A stretch of DNA of 30,953 nt from contig JAJRTK010000324.1 in assembly GCA_024278345.1 (NCBI GenBank), positions 1 to 30,953 of the forward strand, in the 5' to 3' direction. This DNA comes from a bacterium. Its GTDB lineage: Bacteria > CSSED10-310 > JAJRTK01. This document shows positions 3,718-26,780 of the stretch, piece by piece. The number at the start of each line of letters is the position of its first letter. Positions within the stretch are counted from its first letter, which is position 1. The notes below the pieces were generated by a model. It made no database searches. It was not told the origin of the DNA and saw only the letters and a program-made list of their open reading frames with translations. The position numbers and the translations under genes were made by a program.

Positions 3718-6700
3718 ATGGAAAATTACCCAAAATTGATCGGTCCCTACCGCATCATCGACAAGTTGGGCTTTGGCGGGATGGCCGTGGTCTACCGGGC
3801 GATCCACGCCGAAACAGGTGTTGAGGTCGCCGTTAAGACCGTGCGCCTCCAGCGCAGGATCGAGCTGCAACTCTTGCGAGCTGAGATCCGCGCCCTCTCC
3901 CGCGTTCGGCATCCGGGCATTGTCCGCATTCTTGGGGAAGGTCTTGAGGATGGGCTTCCGTGGTATGCCATGGAGCTTGTGGAGGGGATGGATCTTCTTA
4001 CCTACTGGCATTGCCGGAGGCAGGAGGGAGAGTCTTCGATCTCTGTTTCCGGCCCAGGTTCGCCGGAAGGCGCTCTTGCTGGCCAACGGGAAGGAAGTGG
4101 CGGGACTCAGAGCTCGGCGAGGACGGCTTCTTCCGGTGATTCTCTTCCAGACCTCCCGGCCTCGAAATCCGCGGAAGAACCTTCGGTGGCGGCCAGCGGG
4201 AGAGTTTCCGCCAACGGCCCCATTGGGCACTCAAAAACACCTGTGAGCAGCACGTCGGCTTTCGGGGAGTCCTCTCTCCCGGGAAGCGAAACTGCCCGCT
4301 CTCCACAGCTACGTCCATTACCTCGGGAGTCCTCTCTCCCGGGGAGCGGACCAGCCCCGGTCGCTCTCGCGCTTCCAAGTACGGAAGGCGGACCTTTGGA
4401 GCACTGTTTGGAGGAGGCGGTTTCCAAGGGGGAATTCAGGAAATTATCGCGGGCTCTGGACGAAGGGCCGCTGCCTTTGCCGGAGGCCGCTGGAGGCGAG
4501 CTTCCGTTAGCACTTCGCTTGATCAGGGCCATCTGCGAGCCCCTTTCTTATCTCCATGGCGAGGGTCTTGTTCACAGGGATCTCAAGCCGGAGAACGTGT
4601 TGGTCCGGCCTAGTGGTCAGCCAGTGCTTCTGGATTTTGGGCTCAGCGTTCCCTTCACGGGACGCTTGGGCCGGGATCTCTTGGCTCACCACGGGCGGAT
4701 GGTGGGGACCCGGGAATACATGTCTCCCGAGCAGATCCGGGGCGAATTCGTGGATGCCAGGAGCGATCTCTATTCCCTGGGCTGCATGCTCTTCCAACTT
4801 GTCACGGGCCGGTGCCCCTTCGTGAGCACCGATTCGAAGCAACTTTTGCTCCAACATCTCGAGATGCCGCCTCCATGCCCAAGCTCGCTGGTGAAAGAGG
4901 TTCCAGAGGAGCTGGATTCCTTGGTTTTGCGGCTCTTGGAAAAATCTCCCCACCGCCGCCTCGGCTACGCCACCGATTTGGCGGTGGAGCTCCTGAAGAT
5001 CGAGGGTTCGTTGAATCCCGAACTCTCATCACAGGTCGTAGCAGGGCAGTCTGAGCCCCGTTTTCACCAAGGAGGAGGAAAGGCGAACACCGGGGGCGTG
5101 GTTCTGCAAACGGTCCAGGATGGCCCGTGGACGAGGCCGCCCCTGGAGACGAGGATTCAGACAGCGCGGCAGATAGGCGATGAGGGCTCCGCCTTGAAGT
5201 CAGATGGCGCCAGGTTGCCCCCTGTTCGTCACGCTGGGCTTCGGGAGGCTGAAACTCCTCCTCGATCTTACCTCTATGGTCCCGGATTCCTTTCCCGTGT
5301 CCCGGAGTTGGCATTCTTTTCGAAGCGCCTGGATCAGTTGGCGGAAAACCAAGGATCCGTGGCGTTCGTAGAGGGGGAGGCCGGCTGCGGGAAGACTCGC
5401 CTCGCCGTGGAGACCATACACCTGGCGCGACGGAAACGGTTCCGGGTCCTTGTGGGCTGTTGCACTTCTAGCCGTGACTCGGCGGCCTCTTGGAAGCCAC
5501 TCCAGCCGTTGCGGCCCGTATTCCGCTACCTTGCCGACCGTTGCCGGGAACTGGGTGATGCCGAGTCCCAGCGGCTGTTTGGCCATGAGGGGAGGCTGTT
5601 GGCCAGATACGAACCGGCTCTTCAGGCCCTGCCCTTCTTGAAGGACTCCACGGAGCCACCCGATCTCCCCCTCGTGGCGGCAAGAACCCGTCTTTTCCGT
5701 CGCTTGGGGCGAACCTTCGAGGCATTGGTGATCCACAGGCCACTTCTTTTGGTTCTCGAGGATCTCCACTGGGCCGATGAGCTTACTTTGGAGTGGCTTC
5801 GCTTTCTGGTGGAGCACGGGCGGATCGGGCATATGCCGATGCTGGTTCTTGGAACCTACCGCGGAGAGGAGGCGGGGAATGACCGCGCCGGCGGTAGGCT
5901 TCTCCTCTCCCTGACTCACCAGCGTGAGGTGGCGCGTGTCAACTTGGGGCCGCTCGATGAAGATGCCGTCGCCGAGATGGTGGGAAACATGCTTGCCTTA
6001 TCGCCTCCGCCTCGCGCCCTGAGTCGCCACCTGGCCCAACATTCCGGAGGGAACCCCTTCTTCGTTCGCGAGTATCTCCAAGGCGCGGTGGATGAAGGGC
6101 TTTTGTGGCGTGATCCACGGCACGGATGGCAGGTGGCGGAGCCCCTTTGTTCAGGGGAGCTGGACTCCTTGGGCTACGAAAAGCTCCCGCTTCCCCGCTC
6201 AGTGGGTGCCCTTGTGCGGTATCGTCTCGGGACTCTTTCGCCGGGGGCTGCCGCTGTGGCGAATGTTGCCTCTGTTGCCGGTGACATAGCGGCAATCGAT
6301 CTCGTGACCGAAATCGCGGATCTCGGTGAGGCATCTTTTTTTGATGCCCTCGCCGAGTTGAGGAGAAAACACGTCCTTGTTCAAGATGGACATCGGTTTG
6401 GCTTCGTCCATCCCCAGTTTCGCCACGCCGTTTACGACGGACTTTCCTCTGAGCTTCGGAAGGATCTCCACCGAGCCGTGGCCAGGAGGCTGGAGAATGC
6501 GGAACCTACCGTCGCCGCTTTTCTTGTTGGCCGGGGCAGGCATTGGGAGGAGGCTGGGGAAAGAGAACGTGCGCGAAACACCTACTTTCAGGCCGCCCAC
6601 CAGGCCAAGGAGATCCACGATCTCGAAGAGTGTGAGCGGACAGCCGTTGCCTATCTTCGCCTGGCCGACGAACCCACTGTCCAAGGCTGCCTGGTGAGGA

Positions 6701-7917
6701 AGCTCCTTGCGGAGGGCGTCTATCAGGTCCAGGGCCGGGAAGAAGCGGCCATGGAGCAGGCCGGGAAGCTTCTTCGGGAAGCTCGCGCCATTGGAGCCGA
6801 GGCCTTTGAGCTCATCGCCTTGAGATTGCTTGCATCGATCCATCATGACGCAGGTCGGTACCGAAAAGCGCGTTCACTCTATGATGAAGCTCTTGTGGGC
6901 TCCAAGAAACTCGGGGATCTCGATCTGCAGACACTGATCACGGGCGATCTAGCCTATCTTGATCTCCATCAGGGCAGGCCGATAGAGGCGGCGGAGCGCG
7001 CCCGAAAGGGCCTCGATCTCGCACGGCGGTCAGGGAAGAAAGAGATCGAAACCAGGGCTCTTTCGCTTTTGGGAATCCTGGAGCACCAGCATGGCCGGCT
7101 CCCTGAGGCCGTACGACTCTTCGAACAAACACTCCAGCTAGCCAGGGACTTGGGGGATCGCAGGAGCGAAGCCATTCAGCTAGGGAGCCTTGCCAGGGCT
7201 CAGTTTTACTTAGGGAATGTCGAGCTCGCCGCCGATCTTTGTGAGCGGGCATTGGAATTGGCGAAGGAGGTCGGTGACCGCCGAAACGAGGGGCTCTTGT
7301 TGGGGAATCTTGCGGGGTTCTGGCGTACGCCCACAAGACTTCAACGCTCCGAGGAGCTTTACCGTGCAGCCGTTGCCATTGCCAAGGATATCGGGGATCG
7401 CTTGGGGGAAGCGGTGAGCCTTGTAGGTTGGGGTTCTTTGGAGCTGGAAAAGGGCTCGGTGGATAGGGCACGGGTTTTTCTTTCCAGTGGTTTCAATTCG
7501 GCAATGGAAATGGGGGACCGGAAGACGGAGTCGGTTGTTTGCCGGGAGCTCGCGCGACTGGATCGCTGGTTGGATCGCCCGCCTGATATCTCTTGCCAGC
7601 TTGTGGAGATCGCCCTGGATCTTGCTCGGTGCCAAGCCGATGCGATCTTGCTTTTCGAGGCTCTCCTGGAGGCTGGTTACCAGTCCCTTGCGCGCTCTGA
7701 GTCGGCATCGCTTTGGATCGAGGAGGCTCGGGAGCTCCTCATGGGTTTTAGGACTTCTCCGGGCAGTTTCTTGTCGCTGAGCTTCCAAAATCTCGAGATG
7801 GCCCAGGCGGTCTTGGTTGATGGCGGCAAGGGGAAACTGTTTCGAGGAGAGCGGCCCGCCCGATTTCCCCCGGGCTTTCGGCGTTGGCTTGCGGAAACTG
7901 GCCAGTTTCGGGCTTGA
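3718..7917 (+). CDS. Giant Ser/Thr protein kinase - AAA/STAND-type ATPase - TPR protein (1399 aa)
   Basis: From the ATG at 3718 the order is as follows. The kinase N-lobe has the glycine loop LGFGGMAVVYRA (17-28), K40 in VAVKTV and E56. A Ser/Pro/Gly-rich insertion spans about residues 101-262. The C-lobe has HRDLKPEN (286-293, catalytic D288), DFG (306-308), TREYMSPEQ and DARSDLYSLG. The ATPase has Walker A GEAGCGKT (553-560) and Walker B LLLVLEDLHWADE (D682). A helical/TPR region runs from about 970 to 1340. All catalytic kinase residues are present. No transmembrane segment or DNA-binding domain is evident, so it is probably a cytoplasmic sensor-kinase whose ATPase/TPR part gates activity or recruits partners; this is inference from PknK-like architectures. 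The ATG at 3718 is preferred over an in-frame TTG at 3676, because the kinase domain begins just after it. It follows the decarboxylase gene, and a paralogue lies at 22992-26780. Confidence 0.92.
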   Translation: MENYPKLIGPYRIIDKLGFGGMAVVYRAIHAETGVEVAVKTVRLQRRIELQLLRAEIRALSRVRHPGIVRILGEGLEDGLPWYAMELVEGMDLLTYWHCRRQEGESSISVSGPGSPEGALAGQREGSGGTQSSARTASSGDSLPDLPASKSAEEPSVAASGRVSANGPIGHSKTPVSSTSAFGESSLPGSETARSPQLRPLPRESSLPGSGPAPVALALPSTEGGPLEHCLEEAVSKGEFRKLSRALDEGPLPLPEAAGGELPLALRLIRAICEPLSYLHGEGLVHRDLKPENVLVRPSGQPVLLDFGLSVPFTGRLGRDLLAHHGRMVGTREYMSPEQIRGEFVDARSDLYSLGCMLFQLVTGRCPFVSTDSKQLLLQHLEMPPPCPSSLVKEVPEELDSLVLRLLEKSPHRRLGYATDLAVELLKIEGSLNPELSSQVVAGQSEPRFHQGGGKANTGGVVLQTVQDGPWTRPPLETRIQTARQIGDEGSALKSDGARLPPVRHAGLREAETPPRSYLYGPGFLSRVPELAFFSKRLDQLAENQGSVAFVEGEAGCGKTRLAVETIHLARRKRFRVLVGCCTSSRDSAASWKPLQPLRPVFRYLADRCRELGDAESQRLFGHEGRLLARYEPALQALPFLKDSTEPPDLPLVAARTRLFRRLGRTFEALVIHRPLLLVLEDLHWADELTLEWLRFLVEHGRIGHMPMLVLGTYRGEEAGNDRAGGRLLLSLTHQREVARVNLGPLDEDAVAEMVGNMLALSPPPRALSRHLAQHSGGNPFFVREYLQGAVDEGLLWRDPRHGWQVAEPLCSGELDSLGYEKLPLPRSVGALVRYRLGTLSPGAAAVANVASVAGDIAAIDLVTEIADLGEASFFDALAELRRKHVLVQDGHRFGFVHPQFRHAVYDGLSSELRKDLHRAVARRLENAEPTVAAFLVGRGRHWEEAGERERARNTYFQAAHQAKEIHDLEECERTAVAYLRLADEPTVQGCLVRKLLAEGVYQVQGREEAAMEQAGKLLREARAIGAEAFELIALRLLASIHHDAGRYRKARSLYDEALVGSKKLGDLDLQTLITGDLAYLDLHQGRPIEAAERARKGLDLARRSGKKEIETRALSLLGILEHQHGRLPEAVRLFEQTLQLARDLGDRRSEAIQLGSLARAQFYLGNVELAADLCERALELAKEVGDRRNEGLLLGNLAGFWRTPTRLQRSEELYRAAVAIAKDIGDRLGEAVSLVGWGSLELEKGSVDRARVFLSSGFNSAMEMGDRKTESVVCRELARLDRWLDRPPDISCQLVEIALDLARCQADAILLFEALLEAGYQSLARSESASLWIEEARELLMGFRTSPGSFLSLSFQNLEMAQAVLVDGGKGKLFRGERPARFPPGFRRWLAETGQFRA
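4265..4343 (+). repeat. In-frame direct repeat inside the kinase insertion (19 bp, period 60)
   Basis: The 19-mer gggagtcctctctcccggg occurs at 4265-4283 and 4325-4343. The 60-bp spacing equals 20 codons, so both copies encode ESSLPGS. Each copy is itself an inverted repeat (GGGAG...CTCCC). This shows that the insertion inside the first giant kinase grew partly by short duplication, typical of a disordered linker. Confidence 0.85.
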
Positions 7918-7924
7918 AGACATT

Positions 7925-7968
7925 CTCCTGGAGGCTCCGATTGCCTGCCAGGGGCCGGGCTCCAGGAG
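7925..7968 (+). terminator. Inverted repeat after the first giant kinase, weak terminator candidate
   Basis: CTCCTGGAG (7925-7933) is complementary to CTCCAGGAG (7960-7968), giving a 9-bp stem 7 bases past the kinase stop. The loop is long (26 bases) and only a pyrimidine stretch (cctcttcttctg) follows, with no true T-run. Rho-independent termination is therefore uncertain. Confidence 0.3.
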
Positions 7969-8225
7969 CCTCTTCTTCTGGGCATGGTTTTCGGTCAACC
8001 CTTTGTTCTCTTTGTGTTGCGTTCCGCTCCCATCGGGCGCCGTCCGACGCCCGCTGATCGCCATGATTGCCCCTCTCCATCCACTGCCCTTGGCCCGGAT
8101 CACCACGGGTTCCTGCTGCAGGAACTGGATTCTAAGCAAAAAGAGGCTGGGATTGAAAGACCGATTCCTACGGGGAGAAAGCACGTAGAAAATGAGTTGG
8201 CTGACCTTTGTGCGGAGGCGTGACC

Positions 8226-8254
8226 TTGACACTGCATGGGTGACCCTTTATATA
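8226..8254 (+). promoter_or_regulatory. Near-consensus sigma70-type promoter upstream of pntAA
   Basis: TTGACA (8226-8231) is a perfect -35 box. After exactly 17 bases comes TATATA (8249-8254), matching 5 of 6 positions of the -10 consensus. It is the best promoter match I found in the window. It points toward pntAA, but initiation near 8261 would leave about 480 bases before the pntAA ATG, so it could drive a long-leader pnt mRNA or a separate small RNA. Confidence 0.55.
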
Positions 8255-8741
8255 CGGTTTCGGATTTCCCATCTGGCGGAAACACCCGTCAGGTTGATTG
8301 CCGCCCGCGAGGTTTTTTTGGATTGGTTTGTCCCCATCAGCGATAGAATTCCCGGTCGTGGGGCTGTGTGCGGGTTTCTTAGGGGGATCTTCGCGAAAGG
8401 GGTTTGCCGAAGCCCATGTTCTAGCCTCGATCTGGGTCAGTCCGTGGATTCTCCGCTGTCGATGGATTCCCCTTCGGGCGATGGGATTTTTTTTCGGGTG
8501 CGTCACGGCGTATGTATAGAAAGAGTTCCGAATTTCGGGGAAGCTGGTCTTTTTTTGTTGATCTTTCCAGGCGGGGCAGGTTCCGCGAGAAACAAGCTGG
8601 CTGTTTCGTCCGGTGGAAATCCTCCCCAGCAAGGGCATAGAGTCGTCTACCCGGTCGTGGCTTTGTGGTGGTATCGAAAATCGAGCCCCGCGGAGTCTTG
8701 CGGCTGCATCCTCAAGCTCAGTCGAAAGAAGTCGTTGAACC

Positions 8742-9914
8742 ATGTTGAAGGTATTCATTCCCAAGGAACGGCGCGAAGACGAGACTCGCGTGGCCGCGAC
8801 GCCAGAGACCGTCAAAAAGATGGTCAAGGATGGTTTTGCGGTGACGCTGGAAGAGGGCGCCGGAGTTCGAGCGCATTTTTCCGACGAGGCCTTTGCCGAG
8901 GTCGGTGCGATGATCGTCAAGGGCGACTCCGAGGCCTGGAACCAGGCAGACGTCGTCTTGAAGGTCAATCCACCCATCGAGAACGATCTGCTTGGAGGGC
9001 ATGAGGCGGATGCCTTGAAGGCGGGCTCCCTTTTTATTGGCTTCGTGGCTCCATTCCAATCCCCCGAGAGCCTCAAGAGGCTTCGAGACCGCAAGATCAG
9101 TACCGTCTCAATGGAGCTGATTCCCAGGATCACCAGAGCGCAGAATATGGATGCGCTTTCGTCCCAAGCATCGATTGCGGGTTACAAATCGGTCTTGATT
9201 GTGGCCGAAAGGCTTGACAAATACTTCCCCATGCTGATGACCGCTGCCGGAACGATCCAAGCCACGAAGCTGGTGATCATGGGAGCAGGCGTTGCCGGAT
9301 TGCAGGCCGTTGCAACCGCTCGCCGCCTGGGGGCTATCGTGGAGGTTTCGGACATCCGGCCTGCCGTCAAGGAAGAGGTCGAGTCTCTGGGAGGCCGATT
9401 CATCGATCTCCCGGAGCTTGAGAGCGGCGAAGGCGAGGGGGGGTACGCCAGGCAGGTGACCCCCGAGTTCCTTCGCAAACAACAGGCTATCGTCCGGGAA
9501 CACGTCATTCATGCCGATGCGGTCATCACCACTGCCCTCGTGCCAGGAAAACGGGCCCCACGTTTGGTCACCGCGGAAATGGTCCAGGCCATGAGGCCAG
9601 GCGCGGTGATTCTTGACATGGCAGTTGCCCAGGGTGGCAACTGTGAACTGAGCCGGGAAGGGAAGGATATTGTTGCCCACGGTGTCACCATCGTGGGGAA
9701 TCCAAATATACCAGCGACGATGCCCAGAGACGCCAGCCTGGTTTATTCTCGGAACCTTTACAACTTTATGAAGCAGTTCGTTTCGCCTGAAGCACTGTCG
9801 TTGGACCTCGAGGACGACATTGTCTCTGGTGCGTTACTCATCCACCAGGGGCAGGTAAGAAACGAGCGCGTGGCCGCCTTCTTGGATTCCTCCCCTGAGG
9901 AAGTCAAATCTTGA
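8742..9914 (+). CDS. pntAA: NAD(P) transhydrogenase subunit alpha part 1 (NAD(H)-binding domain I)
   Basis: This 390-residue soluble subunit of the proton-translocating transhydrogenase binds NAD(H) and exchanges hydride with the NADP(H) domain of PntB. Visible features are the N-terminal IPKERREDETRVAATPE block, the mobile RQD-type loop RAQNMDALSSQASIAGYK (132-149, Q134), the Rossmann motif GAGVAGLQA (181-189) with D204 as the ribose-binding acid, and the C-terminal NPNIPATMPRDASLVYSRN segment. Length fits the split form of the enzyme, in which alpha is divided into a soluble and a membrane polypeptide. A weak AAAGAAG precedes the ATG. It is first in a three-gene operon; pntAB starts 39 bases after its stop. 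The enzyme supplies NADPH at the expense of the proton gradient. Confidence 0.96.
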   Translation: MLKVFIPKERREDETRVAATPETVKKMVKDGFAVTLEEGAGVRAHFSDEAFAEVGAMIVKGDSEAWNQADVVLKVNPPIENDLLGGHEADALKAGSLFIGFVAPFQSPESLKRLRDRKISTVSMELIPRITRAQNMDALSSQASIAGYKSVLIVAERLDKYFPMLMTAAGTIQATKLVIMGAGVAGLQAVATARRLGAIVEVSDIRPAVKEEVESLGGRFIDLPELESGEGEGGYARQVTPEFLRKQQAIVREHVIHADAVITTALVPGKRAPRLVTAEMVQAMRPGAVILDMAVAQGGNCELSREGKDIVAHGVTIVGNPNIPATMPRDASLVYSRNLYNFMKQFVSPEALSLDLEDDIVSGALLIHQGQVRNERVAAFLDSSPEEVKS

Positions 9915-9953
9915 CGGGTCTTCGACCCTCCATACACCGTAGGAGATAGAATC

Positions 9954-10259
9954 ATGGAAGGGCAGATGATGGGCCCGTTTCTGGTGGGATTGTACGTATT
10001 CGTTTTGGCGATCTTCGTCGGATTCGAGGTGATCACAAAGGTTCCTCCGACATTGCATACGCCGCTGATGAGCGGCGCCAATGCGATTAGCGGGATTACC
10101 GTGATCGGTGCCTTTACGGCAGCAACCTCGGGAGACGCTTCGATGGCCAGCGTGCTGGGTGGCCTCGCCGTCGGCTTTGCGACGATCAACGTCGTTGGCG
10201 GATTCCTCGTCACAGACCGCATGCTCCGCATGTTCGGGAAAAAGAGGAAGGCTTCATGA
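9954..10259 (+). CDS. pntAB: NAD(P) transhydrogenase subunit alpha part 2 (small membrane subunit)
   Basis: The 101-residue protein has three hydrophobic segments (about 8-29, 42-60 and 66-88). The block PPTLHTPLMSGANAISGI is diagnostic of the membrane part of the alpha subunit. With the membrane half of PntB it forms the proton channel (dII). GGAG eight bases before the ATG supports the start. Its stop overlaps the pntB start in an ATGA arrangement, indicating translational coupling. Separate pntAA/pntAB genes are common outside the enterobacteria. Confidence 0.95.
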   Translation: MEGQMMGPFLVGLYVFVLAIFVGFEVITKVPPTLHTPLMSGANAISGITVIGAFTAATSGDASMASVLGGLAVGFATINVVGGFLVTDRMLRMFGKKRKAS

Positions 10260-11686: not shown

Positions 11687-11697
11687 AGGTTTCTAAG

Positions 11698-11737
11698 AAC
11701 TAGCGGCGGTAAGGAAACTTACCGCCGCTAGTTTTTT
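11698..11737 (+). terminator. Rho-independent terminator of the pnt operon
   Basis: A perfect 16-bp stem (11698-11713 with 11718-11733) closes a GAAA tetraloop and runs into TTTTTT (11732-11737). It starts 11 bases after the pntB stop. This is the clearest terminator in the window. Confidence 0.96.
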
Positions 11738-11787
11738 GTTTTGGCTTGCCGTGGCGGATCCGGTTGATGAAGTCGGGAGAAGAGAAC

Positions 11788-12327
11788 ATGGGAAGGCAGG
11801 TGATTCTCCTCGACCGAGACGGAGTCCTGAACCGGGGTAGCAACGAATATGTCCTTCGGCCGGAGCAACTCGTCCTCATCGAGGGCGCCGCCGCCGCCGT
11901 GGGGTGCCTTGTACGGGCTGGCTACACGATTCTCGTTGTCACCAACCAATCTTGTCTGGGCAAAGGGCTCCTGTCATTTCAAGAGCTTGAACGAATTCAC
12001 CATCGGCTCCAAGCATCTCTCGGGGAGGAGGGGGGAGGCATCCACCAGATCTATGTCTGTCCTCATCGAGCAGAGGCCCAGTGTTCTTGTAGAAAACCAC
12101 GGCCCGGGCTCCTGCATCGGGCGTCGAGAGAATGGTTTTTTTCGTTGTCGGATTGCTGGTTCGTGGGAGACAATTGGACGGATGTCGAGGCCGCGGTTGC
12201 CGCAGGGTGTCGCCCAATTCTCGTTCGTTCCGGTGTTCAAGGAAAGAGAGCAAAGCCCGATCCCAGTGTACCAGATTTCTCCGATCTAGCTGATTTCGTG
12301 AAGAACCTCCTCGGCGGTCACCCGTGA
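11788..12327 (+). CDS. gmhB: D-glycero-D-manno-heptose 1,7-bisphosphate 7-phosphatase (HAD family)
   Basis: This 179-residue HAD-superfamily phosphatase removes the C7 phosphate of heptose bisphosphate on the route to ADP-heptose for lipopolysaccharide core. HAD motif I is LLDRDGVLN (D9 nucleophile, D11 acid/base), motif II VVTNQS (T52/N53), motif III K103 in RKPRPG, and motif IV VGDNWTD (D128). The family's zinc-binding Cys/His set is complete: C91, H93, C99, C101 in CPHRAEAQCSC. The ATG at 11788 is preferred because GGGAG lies eight bases upstream; earlier in-frame TTG (11746) and ATG (11767) codons overlap or crowd the pnt terminator. A related histidinol-phosphate phosphatase role is possible. 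No other LPS genes are nearby, so it stands alone. Confidence 0.88.
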   Translation: MGRQVILLDRDGVLNRGSNEYVLRPEQLVLIEGAAAAVGCLVRAGYTILVVTNQSCLGKGLLSFQELERIHHRLQASLGEEGGGIHQIYVCPHRAEAQCSCRKPRPGLLHRASREWFFSLSDCWFVGDNWTDVEAAVAAGCRPILVRSGVQGKRAKPDPSVPDFSDLADFVKNLLGGHP

Positions 12328-12351
12328 CAAGGTCTTCAACCAGGCGCCTGG

Positions 12352-12392: not shown

Positions 12393-12407
12393 CTTGTCTA
12401 ACGCTAT

Positions 12408-16928: not shown

Positions 16929-17019
16929 GGCAAACCTCCGTTAGCGAGTGGGTAAAACTCGGTTGTTACGACCTAGCATGGAAGAAGTCAAACATCCACG
17001 AGCGAAAGCGCGGGTTCTC

Positions 17020-17038
17020 CGCGGGTTGAATGCCCGCG
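17020..17038. other. Short hairpin between two minus-strand genes
   Basis: CGCGGG-ttgaatg-CCCGCG forms a perfect 6-bp GC stem in the gap between the secreted protein gene and the DUF302 gene. No T-run follows on the minus strand, so it may attenuate or stabilise rather than terminate. Chance is possible given the GC content. Confidence 0.25.
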
Positions 17039-17076
17039 TGCAAATCCGCGCTGACGCTCTCAGGAGGAGAGCAGAC

Positions 17077-17955
17077 TTATTTGGTCTGTCCGCCCGACAG
17101 ATCGTCGTATTCGACTGGGTTGAGGGGCCGTGGTCCGAAGCTCTCGAGTTCGAGTTCTCGGCCGTTCCGAACGACCCGCTCGCCATTGATGAAGATTCGG
17201 TTGACTTCAATCATCTTTGTGACCAAGCTGTTCCAGCGCGGGGAAGCCCAGCGGATGTGGATGGCGCCACGCGTCCATGGGATGTTGTTCATCATGGCCA
17301 ACCGTCCCACTTCTTGAATATCAGTTGCCTTGGGTGGGATGCGAAGGACGGTGGTGAGCCCGGCCAGTTCGCCGTTGCCATGGAAGTAGGCCACCCGATA
17401 GAAGATGGGGCTATTTCCGGGGTTGTGCATGGTCAAGAAGTTGTCGTTTTGTTCACCAGCGAATGCGTATCCAAGGACATCGACTCCGCCAACGGCGGTT
17501 TCAGATGGCTCGACGGCGACGATGGCGAAGCGGAATCCGTCCCCCACCTGTCCATCACTGACCAGTGCTTCGATGGTATTGGCATCTCCGCCCACAGGGT
17601 TGAGGGCAACAGGGACGCCTTCGCGGCGGAACTCGCGCTGAAACTTGAACACCTGGCCGTTGAGGGTGATGGTGATCTCGTTCGCCGGGTGGGGGCATGG
17701 CGGCTGATTCGGCTCCATTCCGCCAGAAGCTTCGTCGGGTTGGCAGCCATTCTTGACGACCAGGGCGTATCGGACGTGCTCTCCCTCAATGGTGGTCGGG
17801 AAGGTGTCCGTGAGGGCGCCTCCCTCGAAAGAGACAGCAGCCCTGAACTGAAGGGTTTCTCTGCCGGGAGGTGGTCCTTGCCGTTCTCCGGCGGAACTCG
17901 AGGAGGCAAAGATCAGGGAAGCGGCAATGGCGATGGTCGTGATCAGTTTTCTCAT
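17077..17955 (-). CDS. Secreted protein of unknown function (292 aa)
   Basis: From the ATG at 17955 the protein has a clean signal peptide (MRKLITTIAIAASLIFASSSSA, cut near residue 22) and a mature part of about 270 residues rich in beta-strand-like stretches. There is a single clustered pair of cysteines (NGCQPDE... and QPPCPHPAN, about 20 residues apart) that could form a disulfide in the periplasm. Later segments include MHNPGNSPIFYRVAYFHGNG and WTRGAIHIRW. AGAGG eight bases upstream supports this start; the frame is open for 52 codons further upstream, but that part reads as random. I do not recognise a family. An overlapping plus-strand frame of similar length lacks a signal or any recognisable motif and is a shadow. 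Confidence 0.75.
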   Translation of the reverse strand: MRKLITTIAIAASLIFASSSSAGERQGPPPGRETLQFRAAVSFEGGALTDTFPTTIEGEHVRYALVVKNGCQPDEASGGMEPNQPPCPHPANEITITLNGQVFKFQREFRREGVPVALNPVGGDANTIEALVSDGQVGDGFRFAIVAVEPSETAVGGVDVLGYAFAGEQNDNFLTMHNPGNSPIFYRVAYFHGNGELAGLTTVLRIPPKATDIQEVGRLAMMNNIPWTRGAIHIRWASPRWNSLVTKMIEVNRIFINGERVVRNGRELELESFGPRPLNPVEYDDLSGGQTK

Positions 17956-18260
17956 GATGGATCCTCTGCTTGGCGAGAAGCGCCGGGAAAATTGGCAGCG
18001 AATGATTACTGGGGTCTCTCCAGACTTGCCAAAGGAAAGAGCGCGTTCCGTGCCAAACCCTGACGAAAATACGCAACGTGCTGATAAGTAAATGCTATTT
18101 GATAGATTCATCGCTTTTGTGTGCCCACGCGTGTAGGCAGTTTGTTTGGGGGGCCCTGCCCATTCCAGTTGTCAGTTGCCCACAAAGACAACATCGGTGG
18201 GCGGTTGTTCGACGCAACCTGGAATCGCGCCTTTTTCTTGAGAGAGCGCTGGAGTTTCTA
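17956..18260. other. Intergenic region between divergent genes
   Basis: This holds the upstream regions of the secreted protein (minus) and the cNMP/DUF4388 regulator (plus). The frame of the regulator is open through part of it, but the sequence there does not look like a protein domain. I see no clear promoter, hairpin or RNA gene. Confidence 0.4.
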
Positions 18261-19328
18261 ATGGAGATGGTTCATCATGCGGGTATGAGTCGCGACCTCC
18301 AATACATGGACAAGCTGAACACGCTTCGGCTCTCAGAGCTTTGCCGGGCGGCGAATGACACCGTGCTCGAAGAAATCTTGAACAAGAGTGTTTTTTCCTC
18401 TTATGGTCCGGGCGATGTGATTTACCGTCAGGGCGGGCCGGCCGAATCTTTTTGCATTGTCCACTCCGGTGTCGTGGAGATCTACAATGAAACAGCCACC
18501 GGAGGGAGTGTCATCGCCTATTTAGGGCCCACAGAGTGCGTGGGCGAGTTGGCGCTGCTCATAGGAGACAGCCGGACGGCTACAGCGCAAGTGCCCGAAC
18601 AGGCGGAAGTGATCCACATTTCCAGGGAGGTCTTCGAGGATCTGTTCATGCGCTTCCCGGTTTTTCTCCGGCAGATGTGCTCAATCCTGGCACAAAGACT
18701 TCGCCGCACCACCGACCTGAAATCGCGACCAGTGGAAGCGTCCAGAGATTCGGGTTTGGGGGGGAGCTTGAGGGTCTTCGACCTATCCATCGTCATCCAA
18801 ACCCTCATCGACTCCAGAAAAACGGGCCGGCTCGTTGTAGATGCGGAGGCGGATGGCGAAGGCCTCCAAGCCGAGGTTTTTTTTGACAATGGCAACATTG
18901 TTTGGGGGAAAGCCGGGCGCATTATGGGGGCGGAGGCTGTCTACCAACTTTTCCAAATTCGGTTGGACGGATCGTTTCAGTTCGTTGGCGAACCCCAAGA
19001 TGTGGTTCCTGATGCGAATATCTCCGAGGCACCCATGTCGGTGCTCTTGGAGGCCGCGCGGCTTCAGGACGAGCTGAAAGAGCTCAAAAAGCGGTTGCCA
19101 GACACCTCGATCATCCTTCGGCCCGTAGGGCGGGAGCTCCAGTGGACCGACTATTCCACGCGGCCATTCGCCGCGCCCTTTTGGGCGGCGGTTTGCCGAA
19201 GACCGGAGTCGGTGGATACATTGCTTCGCTGCGCGCCTTACAGCCATGAGCGGGTCTACAGGGTTGCCCTGGGGCTCATGGAGACGGGGCAGGTGGAGGT
19301 CGTTTCAGTGGGTAAAATGGAGATCTGA
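18261..19328 (+). CDS. Cyclic-nucleotide-binding domain / DUF4388 (PATAN) regulatory protein
   Basis: The 355-residue protein has a Crp-type cNMP-binding domain at about 40-150. The phosphate-binding cassette VGELALLIGDSRTATAQV is intact, including E96 and R105, so cyclic nucleotide binding is plausible. A DUF4388/PATAN domain follows (about 168-275; GSLRVFDLSIVIQTLIDSRKTGRLVV, VFFDNGNIVWGKAG), then a short helical segment and an unassigned C-terminal part (about 285-355). There is no helix-turn-helix, so it is not a classical CRP; it probably signals through protein contacts. Such combinations are known from Myxococcota and other environmental bacteria. The ATG at 18261 is chosen because GGAG lies six bases upstream, whereas the in-frame upstream extension reads as non-protein. 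Confidence 0.85.
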   Translation: MEMVHHAGMSRDLQYMDKLNTLRLSELCRAANDTVLEEILNKSVFSSYGPGDVIYRQGGPAESFCIVHSGVVEIYNETATGGSVIAYLGPTECVGELALLIGDSRTATAQVPEQAEVIHISREVFEDLFMRFPVFLRQMCSILAQRLRRTTDLKSRPVEASRDSGLGGSLRVFDLSIVIQTLIDSRKTGRLVVDAEADGEGLQAEVFFDNGNIVWGKAGRIMGAEAVYQLFQIRLDGSFQFVGEPQDVVPDANISEAPMSVLLEAARLQDELKELKKRLPDTSIILRPVGRELQWTDYSTRPFAAPFWAAVCRRPESVDTLLRCAPYSHERVYRVALGLMETGQVEVVSVGKMEI

Positions 19329-19597
19329 TGGCCTCCCCATTGGGAGTTACACATCGTTGGTCTTGCTTGAGCCGATGCTCTTGGTCCATGACTCTCCGCA
19401 TCGTTTGCCAAAGATGCCTACCTTGGGTGGCCGTCCCGATAAAAAGGGGATTAAAGGGAGCCAGTTGCTTTTTTCCCGGTCTCCTTTCCCCGTGGCTAGC
19501 ATTCATCTGCCTTGTGGGTTGTTGATTGTTGAGCTATGATCAGGTTGTTGCACATTCGAGTTGTTGACCTAAAGAGCCTCTCCCGGAACTAAAAAAG

Positions 19598-20857
19598 ATG
19601 AAGCGTTCCCAAACTTTCATGGTGCTTGGCCTGCTAGTTGGGGTCCTGGCAGGGTTTGCAATTCTAGCTTCCTTGATGGCAAGGGATGACAGTCTTCCCA
19701 GCGATGGGGATTTTGCTGTCGCCCGGACGGAACTCCCCAAGGCACGCAATGGTTGGATGTTGCTCGCCAAGGCATCGGATTCCATTGCTTGGCCGGACCG
19801 TGCAAGGATTCGATACGACAACCTGGGGGACAATGGTTGGGATGACGATCTTGCTGAGAGGTTATTAACTCTCAACGAAGAGGTTTTTGCTCAACTGGGA
19901 GCGGCCTTGGCCTACGAGAGACTCCAGGTTCCAGTAGTAATGGATCTCGATGATGATGTGTCCTATGTGGCGGTGTGGCAAGACATTGGGCGGCTCTTGG
20001 TGCTTCGCGCCCGGTTTCTTTTTCGTAGTGGCCTTGACAAGGAGGCCTTTGCGGAAATTAGCCGGCTGATGGAGTTTGGCCACCGGGTCCAAGAGGCGGA
20101 TGGAACGTTGTTGCATCATTTGGTTGGCCGTTCGCTGATGCAGCGCGGCCTTGAGCAGCTCCAAAGGATGGTGGGTCAGACGAAGCTCCGTGCCAATTCC
20201 GTGATCCAATTGGTAGGTCGTTTGGGAAACCAACACGACAGTGGGGCAGGCCTGGATGCCGCGGCGCGGAGGGAGTATTGGCTTCTTGGTAAGATGCTGG
20301 GTAAACTCGAGTCGGGGAAAAAGCGCTGGCATGACATTGGATTGGGTGAAGTGGCGCCCCTGACGATTTTCGGACACGTCTTCTTGAAGAACCGAACGCT
20401 GCGTTTGTACCATGACACGTTGGCGGTTTTCCGAGAGAACATTGTGCGGGCCTGCGCTGAAATGGGAGACCTTCCGCGGTACGATACGATCAATGGGAGT
20501 TCGACATTGGAGCTTTTGCGGATGTTGTTCAGCCGAAATTCCGTCGGGCGTCTTGTTCATTCCATCAGCCGTTCGACTCTGGATCGGGTTCTACAAGGCA
20601 AGTGCGCTTACAACACCCGGCTGGACGGGATTCGGTTGAGGATGGCGGTCTTGGGCTACAAGCACCGGTACGGAGAGCTACCGGAGAGCCTGTCGGCATT
20701 GGCGCCGGAGTTTATTGAATCACTGCCCGTCGATGCCTATTCGGGGCAGCCGTTCTATTACTCGCGGAAGCGGCAGGTTCTCTACTCGGTTTCCCGGAAC
20801 CTTACGAATGACGAAGGTTTGGAACCAGAAGACCTCGTGTTCGACCTGTCCTTTTGA
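19598..20857 (+). CDS. Membrane-anchored protein of unknown function with GspG-like C-terminal motif
   Basis: A 419-residue protein with one N-terminal transmembrane segment (about 8-29, MVLGLLVGVLAGFAILASL) and a large extracytoplasmic part that is mostly helical. The C-terminus has LRMAVLGYKHRYGELPESLSALAPEFIESLPVDAYSGQPFYY (read here in pieces: YGELPESLSAL, LPVDAYSGQPF, YSVSRNLTNDEG). This resembles the YPxSLxxL...LPxDPxSGxPxxY segment shared by type II secretion pseudopilins and by many large planctomycete/acidobacterial proteins of unknown role. No catalytic motif is visible. Upstream ribosome-site support is weak (GGAACTAAAAAAG). It precedes the RlmL-like gene by 30 bases and may be co-transcribed with it. 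Confidence 0.7.
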   Translation: MKRSQTFMVLGLLVGVLAGFAILASLMARDDSLPSDGDFAVARTELPKARNGWMLLAKASDSIAWPDRARIRYDNLGDNGWDDDLAERLLTLNEEVFAQLGAALAYERLQVPVVMDLDDDVSYVAVWQDIGRLLVLRARFLFRSGLDKEAFAEISRLMEFGHRVQEADGTLLHHLVGRSLMQRGLEQLQRMVGQTKLRANSVIQLVGRLGNQHDSGAGLDAAARREYWLLGKMLGKLESGKKRWHDIGLGEVAPLTIFGHVFLKNRTLRLYHDTLAVFRENIVRACAEMGDLPRYDTINGSSTLELLRMLFSRNSVGRLVHSISRSTLDRVLQGKCAYNTRLDGIRLRMAVLGYKHRYGELPESLSALAPEFIESLPVDAYSGQPFYYSRKRQVLYSVSRNLTNDEGLEPEDLVFDLSF

Positions 20858-20869
20858 AAACAGTGTGTT

Positions 20870-20884
20870 ACGGGATAGTCCCGT
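20870..20884 (+). other. Short perfect hairpin just upstream of the RlmL-like gene
   Basis: ACGGGA-TAG-TCCCGT forms a 6-bp stem, extendable by a wobble pair, ending three bases before the putative GTG start. It could restrict ribosome access to that start; no T-run follows, so it is not a terminator. Confidence 0.3.
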
Positions 20885-20887
20885 GAG

Positions 20888-22105
20888 GTGGTAAGGGTGT
20901 CGATCTTGTCTGGACGCAGTCGCCTGCAATTGGTGGCACCCTTGCGATTCCGGAGTTGTCTAAGGAAGGAGCTCGAGGCTCTGGGGCATCTTCGGATCCG
21001 AGAGAGCCCTTTGGGATTGGGCATCGACGGGGACATTGCTGATGCGATGCGTCTGAACCTCTATCTTCGGACGGCGCATCGAGTACTCTTTTTCCTTGAT
21101 TCCTTCCGCGCGCCGAGCCTTGATGAGCTCTGTCGCCAGGTCCGCCGTGGGGCCTGGGAGAAGTTGCTCCATGAAGATGGCTATCTGACGGTCAGCGCGT
21201 ACATCGATCAAGATGGCCAGAACAATGCGCGTTATGTCGCAATGAGGGTAAAAGATGCCATCGTTGACCGGATGCGCTGGTGGTGTGGGCGGCGGCCCGA
21301 TTCGGGGCCCCATCGGACTGGCGTCGTCATCTATGTCTCTTGGGTGCGGAATCGCTGCGAGCTTTACATTGACACTTCCGGCGAGGGCCTTGACCGGCGT
21401 GGGTATCGGAAGGCGTCTCACCGAGCTCCGCTCCGAGAGACACTGGCTGCCGCCCTGGTGATTTCCGCTGGGTGGAAAGGATCTGGTAGCTTTCTTAACC
21501 CGATGTGCGGTAGTGGGAGTCTCGCCATCGAGGCGGCCCTTGTGGCGACCAACGCAGCTCCCGGAATCTTCAGGGAAAATTTCGGTTTTACCCACCTGAA
21601 GGGATTCGACCAAGGGATCTGGCGGTCACTTCAGAAGGAGGCCCGTCATAGCCGCCGAGCCTGGAAGAAAGGAAGAATCGTTGCGACTGATCTGAATGGG
21701 AATGCCTTGAAGGCGACTCTGGCAAACGCGGAGCGGGCCGGGGTCAGCGATCTTGTGGCGTTGGAGATGTGTGATTTCGCGGATTCGCCGGTCCCACCGG
21801 GAGGAGGCGTTGTCATGCTTAACCCTGGATATGGCCGAAGGATTGGCCAACCTGAGGAACTCCAAGAGCTTTACCGAAGGATTGGGGCCTTCTTCAAAAA
21901 ACGCTGCATCGGCTATAGGGGCTATGTTTTCACCGCGAATCGAGAGCTGGCTAGCTGCGTTGGGCTGCGGGCTCGGCGGAAATTGCTGTTCTCCCATGGC
22001 GGGTTGGATTGTCGCCTTCTGGAATACGAGCTTTACCAAGGGAGCAAGAAGAACGGCTCGGCTTTGCCAGGATCTGCCAGTGCGGACCATGGTGAGGCAG
22101 TCTAA
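20888..22105 (+). CDS. RlmL/UPF0020-type RNA methyltransferase with altered motifs
   Basis: The 405-residue protein follows the RlmK/L N-terminal plan: an N-terminal ferredoxin-like/THUMP region (about 1-165, starting LQLVAPLRFRSCLRKELEALG), the linker YIDTSGEGLDRRGYRKASHRAPLRETLAAAL, then a SAM-dependent Rossmann methyltransferase domain. Motif I reads FLNPMCGSGSLAIEAA (202-217), where relatives usually have DPMCGSGT. The catalytic motif reads NPGYG (312-316) instead of the usual NPPYG. Relatives make N2-methylguanosine in 23S rRNA (G2445 in E. coli); the changed NPPY motif makes activity or specificity uncertain. The start is either GTG 20888 or GTG 20897; neither has a strong ribosome site. 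The last 25 residues are low-complexity. Confidence 0.8.
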   Translation: MVRVSILSGRSRLQLVAPLRFRSCLRKELEALGHLRIRESPLGLGIDGDIADAMRLNLYLRTAHRVLFFLDSFRAPSLDELCRQVRRGAWEKLLHEDGYLTVSAYIDQDGQNNARYVAMRVKDAIVDRMRWWCGRRPDSGPHRTGVVIYVSWVRNRCELYIDTSGEGLDRRGYRKASHRAPLRETLAAALVISAGWKGSGSFLNPMCGSGSLAIEAALVATNAAPGIFRENFGFTHLKGFDQGIWRSLQKEARHSRRAWKKGRIVATDLNGNALKATLANAERAGVSDLVALEMCDFADSPVPPGGGVVMLNPGYGRRIGQPEELQELYRRIGAFFKKRCIGYRGYVFTANRELASCVGLRARRKLLFSHGGLDCRLLEYELYQGSKKNGSALPGSASADHGEAV

Positions 22106-22138
22106 CGCACAAGCTGCCGGCTGCCGGGCCGCCGGGAA

Positions 22139-22741
22139 TTACTCGGAGGCATTGGGATCTTCTTCCTGTTCCGGTGTGTCCCTTTCGCCGGCTTCGATAC
22201 GACGTATCGCCTCCTTGACGGTGCTTTGGACGGTCGGATCTTGGTCGCTGAGAGATGCGCGGAGGCGACCGAGGGCATCAATCGCGTCGGAACCCATTCT
22301 GCCCAGGGCATGGGCTGCTTCCGAACGGATCCTCGGTACGCCGCTGTCGAGGCCTTCCAAGAGCTCTGGAACCGCCGATTTCGGAAGGGGCTCGTCCTTG
22401 GCCAAAAGCAATAGAGCTTGACGGGCCACGCGCCAGTCTTCCTCCGGTTTGAGAAGTTTCAACATGGCTCGAACGCTGCCAGGGGTTTTGCGGGCAATGC
22501 CTCGGAGGGCAAAGGCGGCACCATCTCGGACGCGCCAGTCCGTGTCCTTGAGCGCTTTGATCAAGTCAGGCCCGGCCACGCGGGCCTTGTCTCCCATTTC
22601 AGCGAGCTTGTAGGCGGCATCTTTGCGAACTTGAGAGTTGGGATCCTCAAGAAGCTTGATCTGTTCCTGGACCGGATCGACTTGTTTTCCACATCCAGCA
22701 AGCAAGACCGCAAAGACCAGCCCAAGAAGGAACTTCCTCAT
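22139..22741 (-). CDS. HEAT-repeat lipoprotein (200 aa)
   Basis: From the ATG at 22741 the protein has a classical lipoprotein signal, MRKFLLGLVFAVLLAGC, with lipobox LLAGC and lipidated C17. The mature part consists of about four to five HEAT/PBS-like helical repeats (each with a D...VR..AA..L..MG pattern, such as NSQVRKDAAYKLAEMG and DWRVRDGAAFALRGIA), so it is a protein-binding scaffold on the periplasmic side of a membrane. The tail is acidic (EQEEDPNASE). GAAGGGAG seven bases upstream supports this start over the longer frame from 22819. It converges with the RlmL-like gene (33-base gap) and diverges from the second giant kinase. Confidence 0.88.
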   Translation of the reverse strand: MRKFLLGLVFAVLLAGCGKQVDPVQEQIKLLEDPNSQVRKDAAYKLAEMGDKARVAGPDLIKALKDTDWRVRDGAAFALRGIARKTPGSVRAMLKLLKPEEDWRVARQALLLLAKDEPLPKSAVPELLEGLDSGVPRIRSEAAHALGRMGSDAIDALGRLRASLSDQDPTVQSTVKEAIRRIEAGERDTPEQEEDPNASE

Positions 22742-22991
22742 GCGGCTACTCCCTTCTTCGTTTTGGGTGTTTGTCGAATGGCTATGGATAGATTCAGGTG
22801 CTTTTGTCCGGTTCTTCAATGCACCTCCACCTTACGAATCTTGACATGGAAATGCAATCCACTGGTCTTTCAGACCTCAAAAATCTTTCACCTGGTTCGT
22901 TCACGACGAATCTCGGTGACATTAGCTGCCCCTCGCTTTACCGGCAAGGAGGAAGAGCGGAAAGCAAGAGGTTGATCCACGGAGGGAGCGA

Positions 22992-25900
22992 ATGACGATT
23001 CGCGGGAAGAGCGCTATATTCGCCCAAATAGGGTTGGCTGGGGAGAAGCAGGATCGAGGGGCCGAGGCAGGGAGGTGCCAGGTGAGAGCGCCACCATCGC
23101 GGATAGGGCATTATAGGATTGTCGAAGCGTTGGCTGAGGGCGGCATGAGCGTGGTCTATCGCGGCCTGGACCTTCGGACGGGAAACGCCGTTGCGGTCAA
23201 AACCGTTCGCCGCCATCATGCCAGAAGGCTTCGGAGCTTGAGACAGGAAATCCTGTCGTTGGCTGGTATGCGCCATCCGGGAATCGTTCCCATCTTGGAG
23301 CACGGAGTGCATGAAGGCTTGCCGTGGTACTCCATGCCGATGTTGGAGGGATTGACTCTGGACAGTTATGTCGTCCGTGCTTGGGAGGATCTGTGTGCGG
23401 CGGAGGCTGCCGAAGGCACTGGTCCCCAGGATGCCGCGGTTCTGACTTCGGCCAGCGTTGAGAGCCTGGATCCGAAAAATTCAGGATCCCCAAGAAAGTT
23501 GCCCGGGAAGGATCAGACTGCCGACTGGAACGATCCCCAGCAGTTCGACGAAACAGTCGATACTTCCAGCACCCAGGAACTGAAGGCGCGGAGCAAGGTT
23601 ACCGGGGAGGATCTCACCCTTCCACAGTTTCCCGGCGCTAAGGGGAAAAAGCTCGCGAAGGCTGTACTGGATCCGAGGATTCGGCGCATGGCTCTGGAGC
23701 TCATCCAGAATCTGTGCCACCCCCTTGCCTACCTACATGGCGCCGGCCTGGTGCATCGCGATCTAAAACCGGAGAACATTCTGGTTCTTTCTGGCGGAAG
23801 GCCAGTACTGCTCGATTTTGGGTTGATGTCCCGCTTTTCTGGCCACCAGGGCCGAGATGTCCTGGAGGCGGGCGGGCACCGGGTCGGGACGGTTCACTAC
23901 ATGTCTCCGGAGCAGATCCGGGGCGAGATGTGCGATGCGCGGTCGGACCTCTATTCCATGGGCTGCATCTTGTACGAGTTTGTCACCGGCCGGCGCCCGT
24001 TCGAGGCTTCCACCGCGGAGGGGATCTTGGAAGGACATCTTCACGCTCATCTTCGGTCGCCTTCCCACTATGTGAAGGAGCTGCCTCCAGAATTGGAAAA
24101 ACTAATTCTTGGGCTTCTGGAAAAGAATCCCAGAGCTCGCTTAGGTTATGCGGACGTGGTTGAACGCGTGCTGGCGGGACTTCTTGGGGAAGAGAGACAA
24201 GGATGCACCATCTACGGACCATTGCCCAAGGCACGCCCCTATCTCTACAGACCGCGCTTCTGTGGCAGGCAACGTGAACTCGACTTCTTCCAGAGCCGAT
24301 GGAAGGCGCTTCAGCATGGCCGGGGCGGGCTCACCTTGCTTCTGGCCGAGGATGGGGGGGGGAAAACTCGTTTTCTGGGAGAGGTGGGGAGTCTAGCACG
24401 CCGCCGGAAGTGCCGTGTCTTGATGGGAGAGAGCAGACCGGAACTGGGCAGCGCCGCGGCATTTGCCCCCCTCCAGCAGCCCATGCAGTCCATCGCCGAT
24501 CGCTGCCGGGAGTGGGGAGAGGAAGAAACGAAACTCATCCTGGGGAGACGAGGCGCCGTCTTGGCTGGCTACTTCCCGGCCTTTGTCGGATTGGGTGCTC
24601 ACAGCGAAGAACCAGATGAGCTGCCGCCCGAGGCTGCCCTCGTACGTCTCTATTCTTGCCTGGCCGAAACTCTGGGCGCCCTCACCGCGTCGAAGCCTGT
24701 GGTGCTGGCCTTGGACGACCTCCACTGGGCCGACGAGCTGACTCTTGGTTTTCTGAAATTCTTGGCAAATGGAAAGTTTCTGAGCGACGTGCCGCTCCTG
24801 ATTGTCGGAGCCGCTCGAAGCGAAGAAGGCGACGGAGCCTTGGCGAGCTTGCTCGCCTCACGAGGCATCGACTTCCTAAGACTCGAGCCGCTTGGAATCG
24901 AAGGGGTCGGAGCTATTGTTCGAGACATGCTGGCCATGAAAAAGCCTCCCTTGGAATTCGTTCGTACCCTGGCCTTCGAGGCGGGCGGAAAACCGGCTTT
25001 TGTGGCGGAATACTTGCGAATGGCCGTGGCGGAAGGAATCCTGACTCGGGACGGAAGTGGCAGGTGGAGCGTCGGGAAGAAGTGGTCGCCTTCCGTTGCC
25101 CCGGAGGGGGTGTCTGGCGATGAGCGCCAGTTCTTGCTCTTGCGCTCGCTTCGCGACTACACATTGCGGCGTTTCCAAGAGCTGTCGCCACAGGCCACCC
25201 GCTTCATCGAAGCTGCTGCCGTATTGGGGGGCAAAACGAGTCTCGACATCTTGACCGGAGTCGTTGGCACCGAAGAGGAGGCCCTGGAGGCCGTGGTCGA
25301 GCTCCAGCGTGCCGAGATCATGGAGGTCGTGGACGACCTGGAGCTCCGGTTCGTCCACGAGCGATTGCGTCAAGTCGTCTTGGAGGGGCTCCAGAGCCAA
25401 CGGCGGCGAGAACTCCATCGAAAAGCCGCCGAGGCTATCGAAGGCCATGGGTCCGGGGAACAGCAGGATGCTTCTGGGAACTTGGCAGTAAGGCTTGGCT
25501 ACCACTGGGAGTGCGCTGGTGACATGGTGCGGGCGAAGAACTCCTATCTTTCTGGCGCCCGATGGGCTAGGAAACGCTACGCTCATGGCCTTGCCGAAGA
25601 ACTCTATCGAGCCTTCTTGAGACTCGGCAATGGCCGCTCCAAAGACAGCGTCGAGGCTCGCCTCGAGCTTTGCAGTGAGGTCCTCAGGATTCAAGGAAGG
25701 GTGTCCGAGGCGCTACCGGAACTTGAGCTTTGCCTGGCTGAGGCCAGAGAACTTGGCTTTCGGGCCGGCGAGGCGCGAGTTCTCGTTGAGCTCGGCATCG
25801 TCCAGCAAGCAGTGGCACGGCTGGAGCAGGCTCTTGAAACCTATGAGGCCTCTCTTGCCATCTACCGCGAGATCGGCGATCGGCGAGGCGAGGCCATCGC

Positions 25901-26780
25901 CCTGGGCAAGCTCGCCAACGTCTATGGCATTCAGGCCCGGCTGTCCGAGGCGCTGGCGAATCACCACAGGTCCTTGGAAATCTTCCGCGAGCTTGGGGAC
26001 TTGCGTTATGAGGGCGCTGCATTGGCTAACCTTGCCAGTTTCCATTACGACAGAGGTGAAAACCATCGCGCCCTCGAACTCTTCCAGCGGGCCGTGGAGA
26101 TCCATCGGGAAGTCGGAAACCGCTTCCACGAGGGGATCACTCTGGGGAATCTGGCGACCTTGCTCTTCGAGGAAGGAGAGCATGCTCGAGCCCTCGATCT
26201 CTATGAGAAGGCACGAGTGATCTATCGTGAGGTCGGCGATCTCGCCGGAGATGCCTATGCAGCCTGCACCCTCGGGAACTGGTGCCTAAAATTGGGGCGC
26301 CTGGAAGAAAGCCGGCGGGCCTTCCAGCGGTCCCTTTCCATCGTCCGGGAGATCGGCGATCGGTCATTGGAGCTCGTCAACCTCGTCCAAATGGCTCTCC
26401 TTGCCAGACAGGGCGAGGCGGATCTCCCACGGGCGAATGAACTTCTGAACAAGGCTGAATCGATGCTCGCGGATTTCGGCGATCTGAAATATCTCGCCCT
26501 TTGCCACGTCCAACGCGGGCACCTGGCCCTGGCCGAAGGCCGGTCGGCTCACGCTTTCCTGGCGGAGGTCCAAAGTTTTCACGTGATGGCTCCGGAAGGA
26601 CCCGGGAGCGATATCTCAAGAGCGATCCACCGCCTGGAAAGGGCCCAGGCCGCCTTTGAGGCCGGCGAACCTCTCTTCATGGGCGAGTGCCCCGAGGAAC
26701 TTCCCCAAGGACTGAGACGCCAGCTCATAGAGGATGATCTGCTGCCGCCAACCTCCCCCAATTCTCAACGAAGGTCATGA
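22992..26780 (+). CDS. Giant Ser/Thr protein kinase - AAA/STAND-type ATPase - TPR protein, second paralogue (1262 aa)
   Basis: The domain order matches the paralogue at 3718-7917. The kinase N-lobe has LAEGGMSVVYRG and K70 in VAVKTV. A low-complexity insertion spans about 130-228. The C-lobe has HRDLKPEN (catalytic D257), DFG (275-277) and HYMSPEQIRG. The ATPase Walker A AEDGGGKT (452-459) has Ala at the first position, still within the accepted [AG]xxxxGK[ST] pattern, and Walker B is VVLALDDLHWADE. At least five TPR units follow (about 900-1150), with a 40-residue period marked by GDRRGEA...LANL. No membrane segment or output domain is visible, so it is likely a cytoplasmic sensor-kinase (inference). 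GGAGGG five bases before the ATG fixes the start. Its stop lies one base before the GCS2-type ligase start, implying translational coupling. About 40 basic residues precede the kinase domain. Confidence 0.93.
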   Translation: MTIRGKSAIFAQIGLAGEKQDRGAEAGRCQVRAPPSRIGHYRIVEALAEGGMSVVYRGLDLRTGNAVAVKTVRRHHARRLRSLRQEILSLAGMRHPGIVPILEHGVHEGLPWYSMPMLEGLTLDSYVVRAWEDLCAAEAAEGTGPQDAAVLTSASVESLDPKNSGSPRKLPGKDQTADWNDPQQFDETVDTSSTQELKARSKVTGEDLTLPQFPGAKGKKLAKAVLDPRIRRMALELIQNLCHPLAYLHGAGLVHRDLKPENILVLSGGRPVLLDFGLMSRFSGHQGRDVLEAGGHRVGTVHYMSPEQIRGEMCDARSDLYSMGCILYEFVTGRRPFEASTAEGILEGHLHAHLRSPSHYVKELPPELEKLILGLLEKNPRARLGYADVVERVLAGLLGEERQGCTIYGPLPKARPYLYRPRFCGRQRELDFFQSRWKALQHGRGGLTLLLAEDGGGKTRFLGEVGSLARRRKCRVLMGESRPELGSAAAFAPLQQPMQSIADRCREWGEEETKLILGRRGAVLAGYFPAFVGLGAHSEEPDELPPEAALVRLYSCLAETLGALTASKPVVLALDDLHWADELTLGFLKFLANGKFLSDVPLLIVGAARSEEGDGALASLLASRGIDFLRLEPLGIEGVGAIVRDMLAMKKPPLEFVRTLAFEAGGKPAFVAEYLRMAVAEGILTRDGSGRWSVGKKWSPSVAPEGVSGDERQFLLLRSLRDYTLRRFQELSPQATRFIEAAAVLGGKTSLDILTGVVGTEEEALEAVVELQRAEIMEVVDDLELRFVHERLRQVVLEGLQSQRRRELHRKAAEAIEGHGSGEQQDASGNLAVRLGYHWECAGDMVRAKNSYLSGARWARKRYAHGLAEELYRAFLRLGNGRSKDSVEARLELCSEVLRIQGRVSEALPELELCLAEARELGFRAGEARVLVELGIVQQAVARLEQALETYEASLAIYREIGDRRGEAIALGKLANVYGIQARLSEALANHHRSLEIFRELGDLRYEGAALANLASFHYDRGENHRALELFQRAVEIHREVGNRFHEGITLGNLATLLFEEGEHARALDLYEKARVIYREVGDLAGDAYAACTLGNWCLKLGRLEESRRAFQRSLSIVREIGDRSLELVNLVQMALLARQGEADLPRANELLNKAESMLADFGDLKYLALCHVQRGHLALAEGRSAHAFLAEVQSFHVMAPEGPGSDISRAIHRLERAQAAFEAGEPLFMGECPEELPQGLRRQLIEDDLLPPTSPNSQRRS
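24354..24362 (+). repeat. Nine-G homopolymer coding the Walker A glycines
   Basis: Nine consecutive G encode the three glycines of AEDGGGKT in the second kinase. Slippage by one base here would cut off the ATPase and TPR parts while leaving the kinase domain intact. Confidence 0.9.

Follow-up and report, generated by a model that had tools for sequence, protein, structure and literature searches.

Two kinase-AAA-TPR paralogues in the window

The window, i.e., the whole stretch of 30,953 nucleotides analysed here, encodes two large paralogous proteins, P0001 and P0002 (Table 1). Pkinase, AAA_16 and TPR were matched by Pfam in both proteins, with the Pkinase match falling into two stretches. 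Both belong to the Hanks-type kinases (PF00069), having a Pkinase match above the cut-off, the VAIK lysine and the HRD, DFG and APE motifs. Both also show the STAND-type arrangement, in which AAA_16 with Walker A and a DLHWAD-type Walker B is followed by a repeat sensor. The two proteins align with 41% identity in the kinase domain and 32% elsewhere; the gaps in the kinase-domain alignment lie only within a long insert following the hinge (PWYAMELVEG in P0001, PWYSMPMLEG in P0002). The initial annotation considered all catalytic residues on both sides of this insert intact, which holds for the lysine, the C-helix glutamate, HRD, DFG and APE/SPE of both proteins but not for the glycine loop of P0002 (AEGGMS, as against GFGGMA in P0001), where two of the three glycines are replaced in an otherwise intact kinase.

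Table 1. Features of the two kinase genes (window positions)
Feature	Positions	Strand	Description	Basis
P0001	3718..7917	+	Hanks-type Ser/Thr kinase - AAA_16 (STAND-like) - TPR protein, 1399 aa	
P0001 kinase domain	3727..5007	+	residues 4-430, insert included	Pfam, AlphaFold
P0001 alphaD-alphaE insert	4036..4497	+	residues ~107-260, S/P/G rich, without WWT	predicted disorder, pLDDT ~27-46
P0001 AAA_16 domain	5293..5844	+	residues 526-709, Walker A GEAGCGKT, DLHWAD	Pfam
P0001 TPR region	6817..7497	+	residues ~1034-1260	Pfam
P0002	22992..26780	+	paralogous kinase - AAA_16 - TPR protein, 1262 aa	
P0002 kinase domain	23094..24164	+	residues 35-391, insert included, glycine loop AEGGMS	Pfam
P0002 alphaD-alphaE insert	23400..23678	+	residues ~137-229	bounds transferred from P0001 model
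P0002 AAA_16 domain	24255..24806	+	residues 422-605	Pfam
P0002 TPR region	25785..26372	+	residues ~932-1127	Pfam

Other genes of the window include a cNMP-binding/DUF4388 reading frame (18078-19325) flanked by two reading frames without a Pfam match (16948-18060, 371 aa; 19598-20854, 419 aa). The reverse strand (27996-29840) encodes a 614-aa protein in which leucine-rich repeats are followed by a WGR domain, an unusual pairing.

Position, composition and distribution of the insert

Measured between the final hinge-motif residue and the histidine of HRD, the hinge-to-HRD distance is 195 residues in P0001 and 134 in P0002. In 74 bacterial Hanks kinases recovered with the same search it is 33-42 residues (median 38). 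The extra length is thus ~157 and ~96 residues, in agreement with the ~160 and ~100 residues first annotated.

The exact site of the insertion is narrower than the interval from hinge to HRD given by the initial annotation. An AlphaFold2 model of P0001 residues 4-685 was built from a 22-row alignment containing only window and GTDB-contig sequences (model residue n corresponds to P0001 residue n+3). Helix alphaD occupies model residues 90-103 and alphaE residues 258-278; nearly the whole stretch between them has a pLDDT of ~27-46, compared with 80-96 for most of the kinase core. A model of a same-phylum relative (L125) has pLDDT below 50 at residues 99-161 and mostly 85-97 in the kinase and AAA core. 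From this placement and the low pLDDT in both models, the insert is predicted to be a disordered expansion of the alphaD-alphaE (DE) loop containing no folded subdomain; an ordered known subdomain, for which structure prediction had been proposed as a check, was found in neither model. The bounds of the P0002 insert were placed from the P0001 model through the distances to hinge and HRD.

The insert was initially treated as a peculiarity of the two window proteins. This framing is wrong, since the insert is common to most of the clade of kinases with a PWYxM hinge. This clade was sampled as 123 distinct members with readable hinge and HRD, from the window's phylum and Myxococcota. The hinge-to-HRD distance exceeds 50 residues in 108 members and is 34-49 in the other 15; over all 123 it ranges from 34 to 195 (quartiles 67, 92 and 113). 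A further Myxococcota sample (n=13, partly overlapping the first set) gave mostly 60-123 residues, with two members at 36-41.

The window's own genome (6 Mb; 95 Pkinase and 34 FHA matches) carries ~26 kinase-AAA-TPR paralogues with the PWYxM hinge, and ~21 of its paralogues besides P0001 and P0002 have the insert. Very large expansion of the group was observed in another genome of the same phylum (G003, 9.2 Mb, ~90 PWYxM kinase-AAA-TPR genes); two other families of this phylum have PWYxM kinases in smaller numbers. In Myxococcota the clade was found in 11 of the 112 genomes searched, with one or a few genes per genome.

On a kinase-core tree, weakly supported and poorly resolved, from which the insert columns were left out, the presence of the insert requires 14 changes as against a shuffled mean of 36. 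This clustering indicates a trait inherited within the clade, with repeated loss or regain. The short-looped 15 of the 123 members, together with own-genome kinase-AAA proteins lacking the PWYxM hinge (hinge-to-HRD 44-49, no long insert), go part of the way towards showing the same architecture without the insertion, which the initial annotation had named as evidence against its reading. The kinase-AAA-TPR architecture does not require the insert, which, judging from these sequences, is a dispensable clade trait. Since members without it keep their catalytic motifs, it also looks dispensable for catalysis.

Two further observations concern kinases of these groups. About 24 of the 123 clade members are non-RD kinases (HGD, HLD, HCD and similar in place of HRD), which suggests activation without classical activation-loop phosphorylation. 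Three Myxococcota kinases without PWYxM (L129, L138 and L248 from Hyalangium, Myxococcaceae and Archangium) have a highly acidic alphaD-alphaE insert with a distance of 161-166 residues, possibly an independent DE-insert lineage.

The inserts are rich in Ser, Thr, Pro, Gly and Ala and mostly unalignable among members; Ser and Thr make up 18% of the residues in the 108 inserts and 7% in the kinase core. The description of the insert as conserved in position and unconserved in content, made for P0001 and P0002, is right for this pair and extends to the divergent, disordered inserts of the clade, except that 31 of the 108 share the motif described below. Besides this motif, an (R)xPAAGGxL segment directly before alphaE occurs in 13 of the 108 inserts, compared with 2.7 after shuffling, in both phyla (e.g., L020, L032, L123); as a sequence feature it appears real but minor.

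The WWTx(S/T)L motif

WWT is present in 31 of the 108 inserts, in most of them within WWTx(S/T)L; all 31 come from the window's phylum, where four genera are represented (genomes G000, G001, G003 and G007). Composition-preserving shuffles of each insert gave a mean of 0.28 and a maximum of 3 occurrences in 1000 runs. Additional cases are a gene of the own genome (G000:C457, WWTLCL) and two genes of G003:C202. No WWT was found in the Myxococcota clade members sampled, and about 70% of inserts lack it, including those of P0001 and P0002, where no recognisable version, even a weak one, is present. A search for weak versions scored 8 of the 77 motif-less inserts at p<0.05 where chance alone would give ~4; this small excess was rejected as a source of further cases.

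At the DNA level, WWT has the fixed letters TGGTGGAC and then any base, as the Thr codon is ACC, ACG, ACT or ACA; the Ser and Leu codons vary as well, and the flanking codons change between cases. Variation of the Thr, Ser and Leu codons indicates that the motif is conserved at the protein level. Within the 123 sampled kinase reading frames no WWT was found outside the inserts. A genome-wide pattern search of four genomes returned kinase inserts, chance matches out of frame or in short ORFs, and one broken kinase gene; all in-frame matches traced in long ORFs lie within kinase inserts, apart from this broken gene. The latter (L322, G003:C72:73860-76876) is the remnant of a PWYxM kinase in which WWTQSL still stands beside a hinge fragment. 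A free-standing gene for a WWT peptide was also considered and rejected, the short-ORF matches being either L322 or unconvincing reading frames.

On the weakly supported core tree the presence of WWT requires 26 changes (26.6 after shuffling), i.e., it is scattered as if at random. In the close pair L081/L097, the insert with DDWWTQSLAGNEE aligns by eye to EQRSTRALAADEE, T.(S/A)LA being retained; this difference looks like the loss of both tryptophans. Searches of the literature for a 'WWT motif' and for a bacterial DE insert found neither described, which is weak evidence of absence.

Possible functions of the insert and comparison with known systems

We consider it somewhat probable that the DE insert acts as a disordered recruitment or regulatory tether with WWTx(S/T)L as its docking motif. 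The TPR/AAA part would sense and switch the kinase. The insert would leave the C-lobe next to the active-site cleft as a flexible, Ser/Thr-rich tether carrying short linear motifs, and would recruit or position partners, probably once phosphorylated by its own or a sister kinase. Since WWTx(S/T)L occurs in about a third of the window-phylum inserts, many paralogues could dock one shared partner. The functional tether proposed by the initial annotation is accordingly a plausible reading for the clade, to be set against the 15 of 123 members that have a similar core and no insert; the autophosphorylation platform that it named beside the tether is a hypothesis.

WWTxSL looks like a putative docking motif, possibly a phospho-motif. 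FHA domains are phosphothreonine readers that recognise Thr with Leu at +3, and WWTxSL has Leu at +3 from its Thr; the own genome, as mentioned, has 34 FHA matches. A more specific and tentative version of the tether reading is that the Thr is (auto)phosphorylated and an FHA-type reader recognises it through the Leu at +3, or that a shared TPR hub binds the motif; many different sensors would then feed into a single output.

Neutral loop expansion could also explain the insert. An ancestral expansion of an insertion-tolerant surface loop would have been inherited, with its length and sequence drifting without function. We regard this as doubtful for the insert as a whole, despite the hinge-to-HRD variation within the clade, the catalytic motifs retained by insert-less members and the unalignable bulk of the content, because 31 inserts retain WWTx(S/T)L through synonymous codon changes while their surroundings diverge, and the insert itself is kept across two phyla. 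The near-invariant motif is likewise what favours the earlier judgement that the insert is not random decay, although this support does not reach the two window inserts, from which the motif is absent. For the 70% of inserts that lack the motif, those of both window proteins included, drift may be the explanation.

Less probable still is an intramolecular autoinhibitory switch, in which WWTxSL or other insert segments would fold onto the TPR, AAA or kinase surface of the same protein and keep the kinase off as long as the sensor is not engaged. TPR grooves bind Trp-containing and helical peptides, the insert exits the C-lobe near the active-site cleft, and AlphaFold draws the WWT segment of L125 as an isolated helix. 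However, this helix has a pLDDT of only ~27-32 and makes no confident contact, so the model gives no docking of the motif. Intramolecular docking was also sought by covariation and rejected, as no kinase-core or AAA column follows the presence of the motif beyond the permutation maximum. An origin of WWT as a DNA-level or mobile-element signature, suggested by its fixed letters, is made very unlikely by the free variation of the Thr, Ser and Leu codons, the differing flanking codons and the tracing of in-frame occurrences to kinase inserts.

STAND proteins combine sensor repeats, an ATPase switch and an effector, and PknK is named as one of them (PMC4381067). By described architecture, P0001 and P0002 resemble STAND kinases of the PknK (M. 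tuberculosis) / MalT kind, in which a kinase as effector is joined to a STAND-like ATPase and a repeat-type sensor; they differ in that canonical TPR_12 repeats outscore MalT-type TPR. The nearest solved folds are PknB-type kinases (Foldseek with the L125 model, phmmer with P0001). The best stretch of these PDB kinases aligns to P0001 only from residue ~265 onward, in the C-lobe, and none of the PDB kinase matches showed anything equivalent to the insert.

The closest analogue of the insert itself is the kinase insert domain of KIT, PDGFR and VEGFR. This 'longDE' insert of receptor tyrosine kinases evolves fast, with no detectable similarity between families (PMC8662651), and was removed for crystallography with kinase activity kept (PMC7096506). 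The bacterial insert resembles it in its alphaD-alphaE site (P0001 and L125 models), disorder, fast evolution, clade-wide occurrence, lack of sequence similarity between families and apparent dispensability for kinase activity. The analogy is one of position and not of homology, since the bacterial proteins are Ser/Thr kinases nearest to PknB rather than tyrosine kinases of the longDE clade; the likeness is probably convergent. The bacterial insert is also longer (up to ~155 extra residues) and carries Trp-Trp-Thr motifs where the receptor insert has phosphotyrosine SH2 sites. If the tether reading is true, dozens of paralogous STAND kinases sharing one docking motif would have in it a bacterial equivalent of the insert of receptor tyrosine kinases. 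In animal receptor kinases, docking by linear motifs that lie in disordered inserts is a hallmark, and this clade would show that bacteria arrived at it independently. WWTxSL is also a concrete bait of six residues with which the partner shared by this large, uncharacterised kinase family could be sought.
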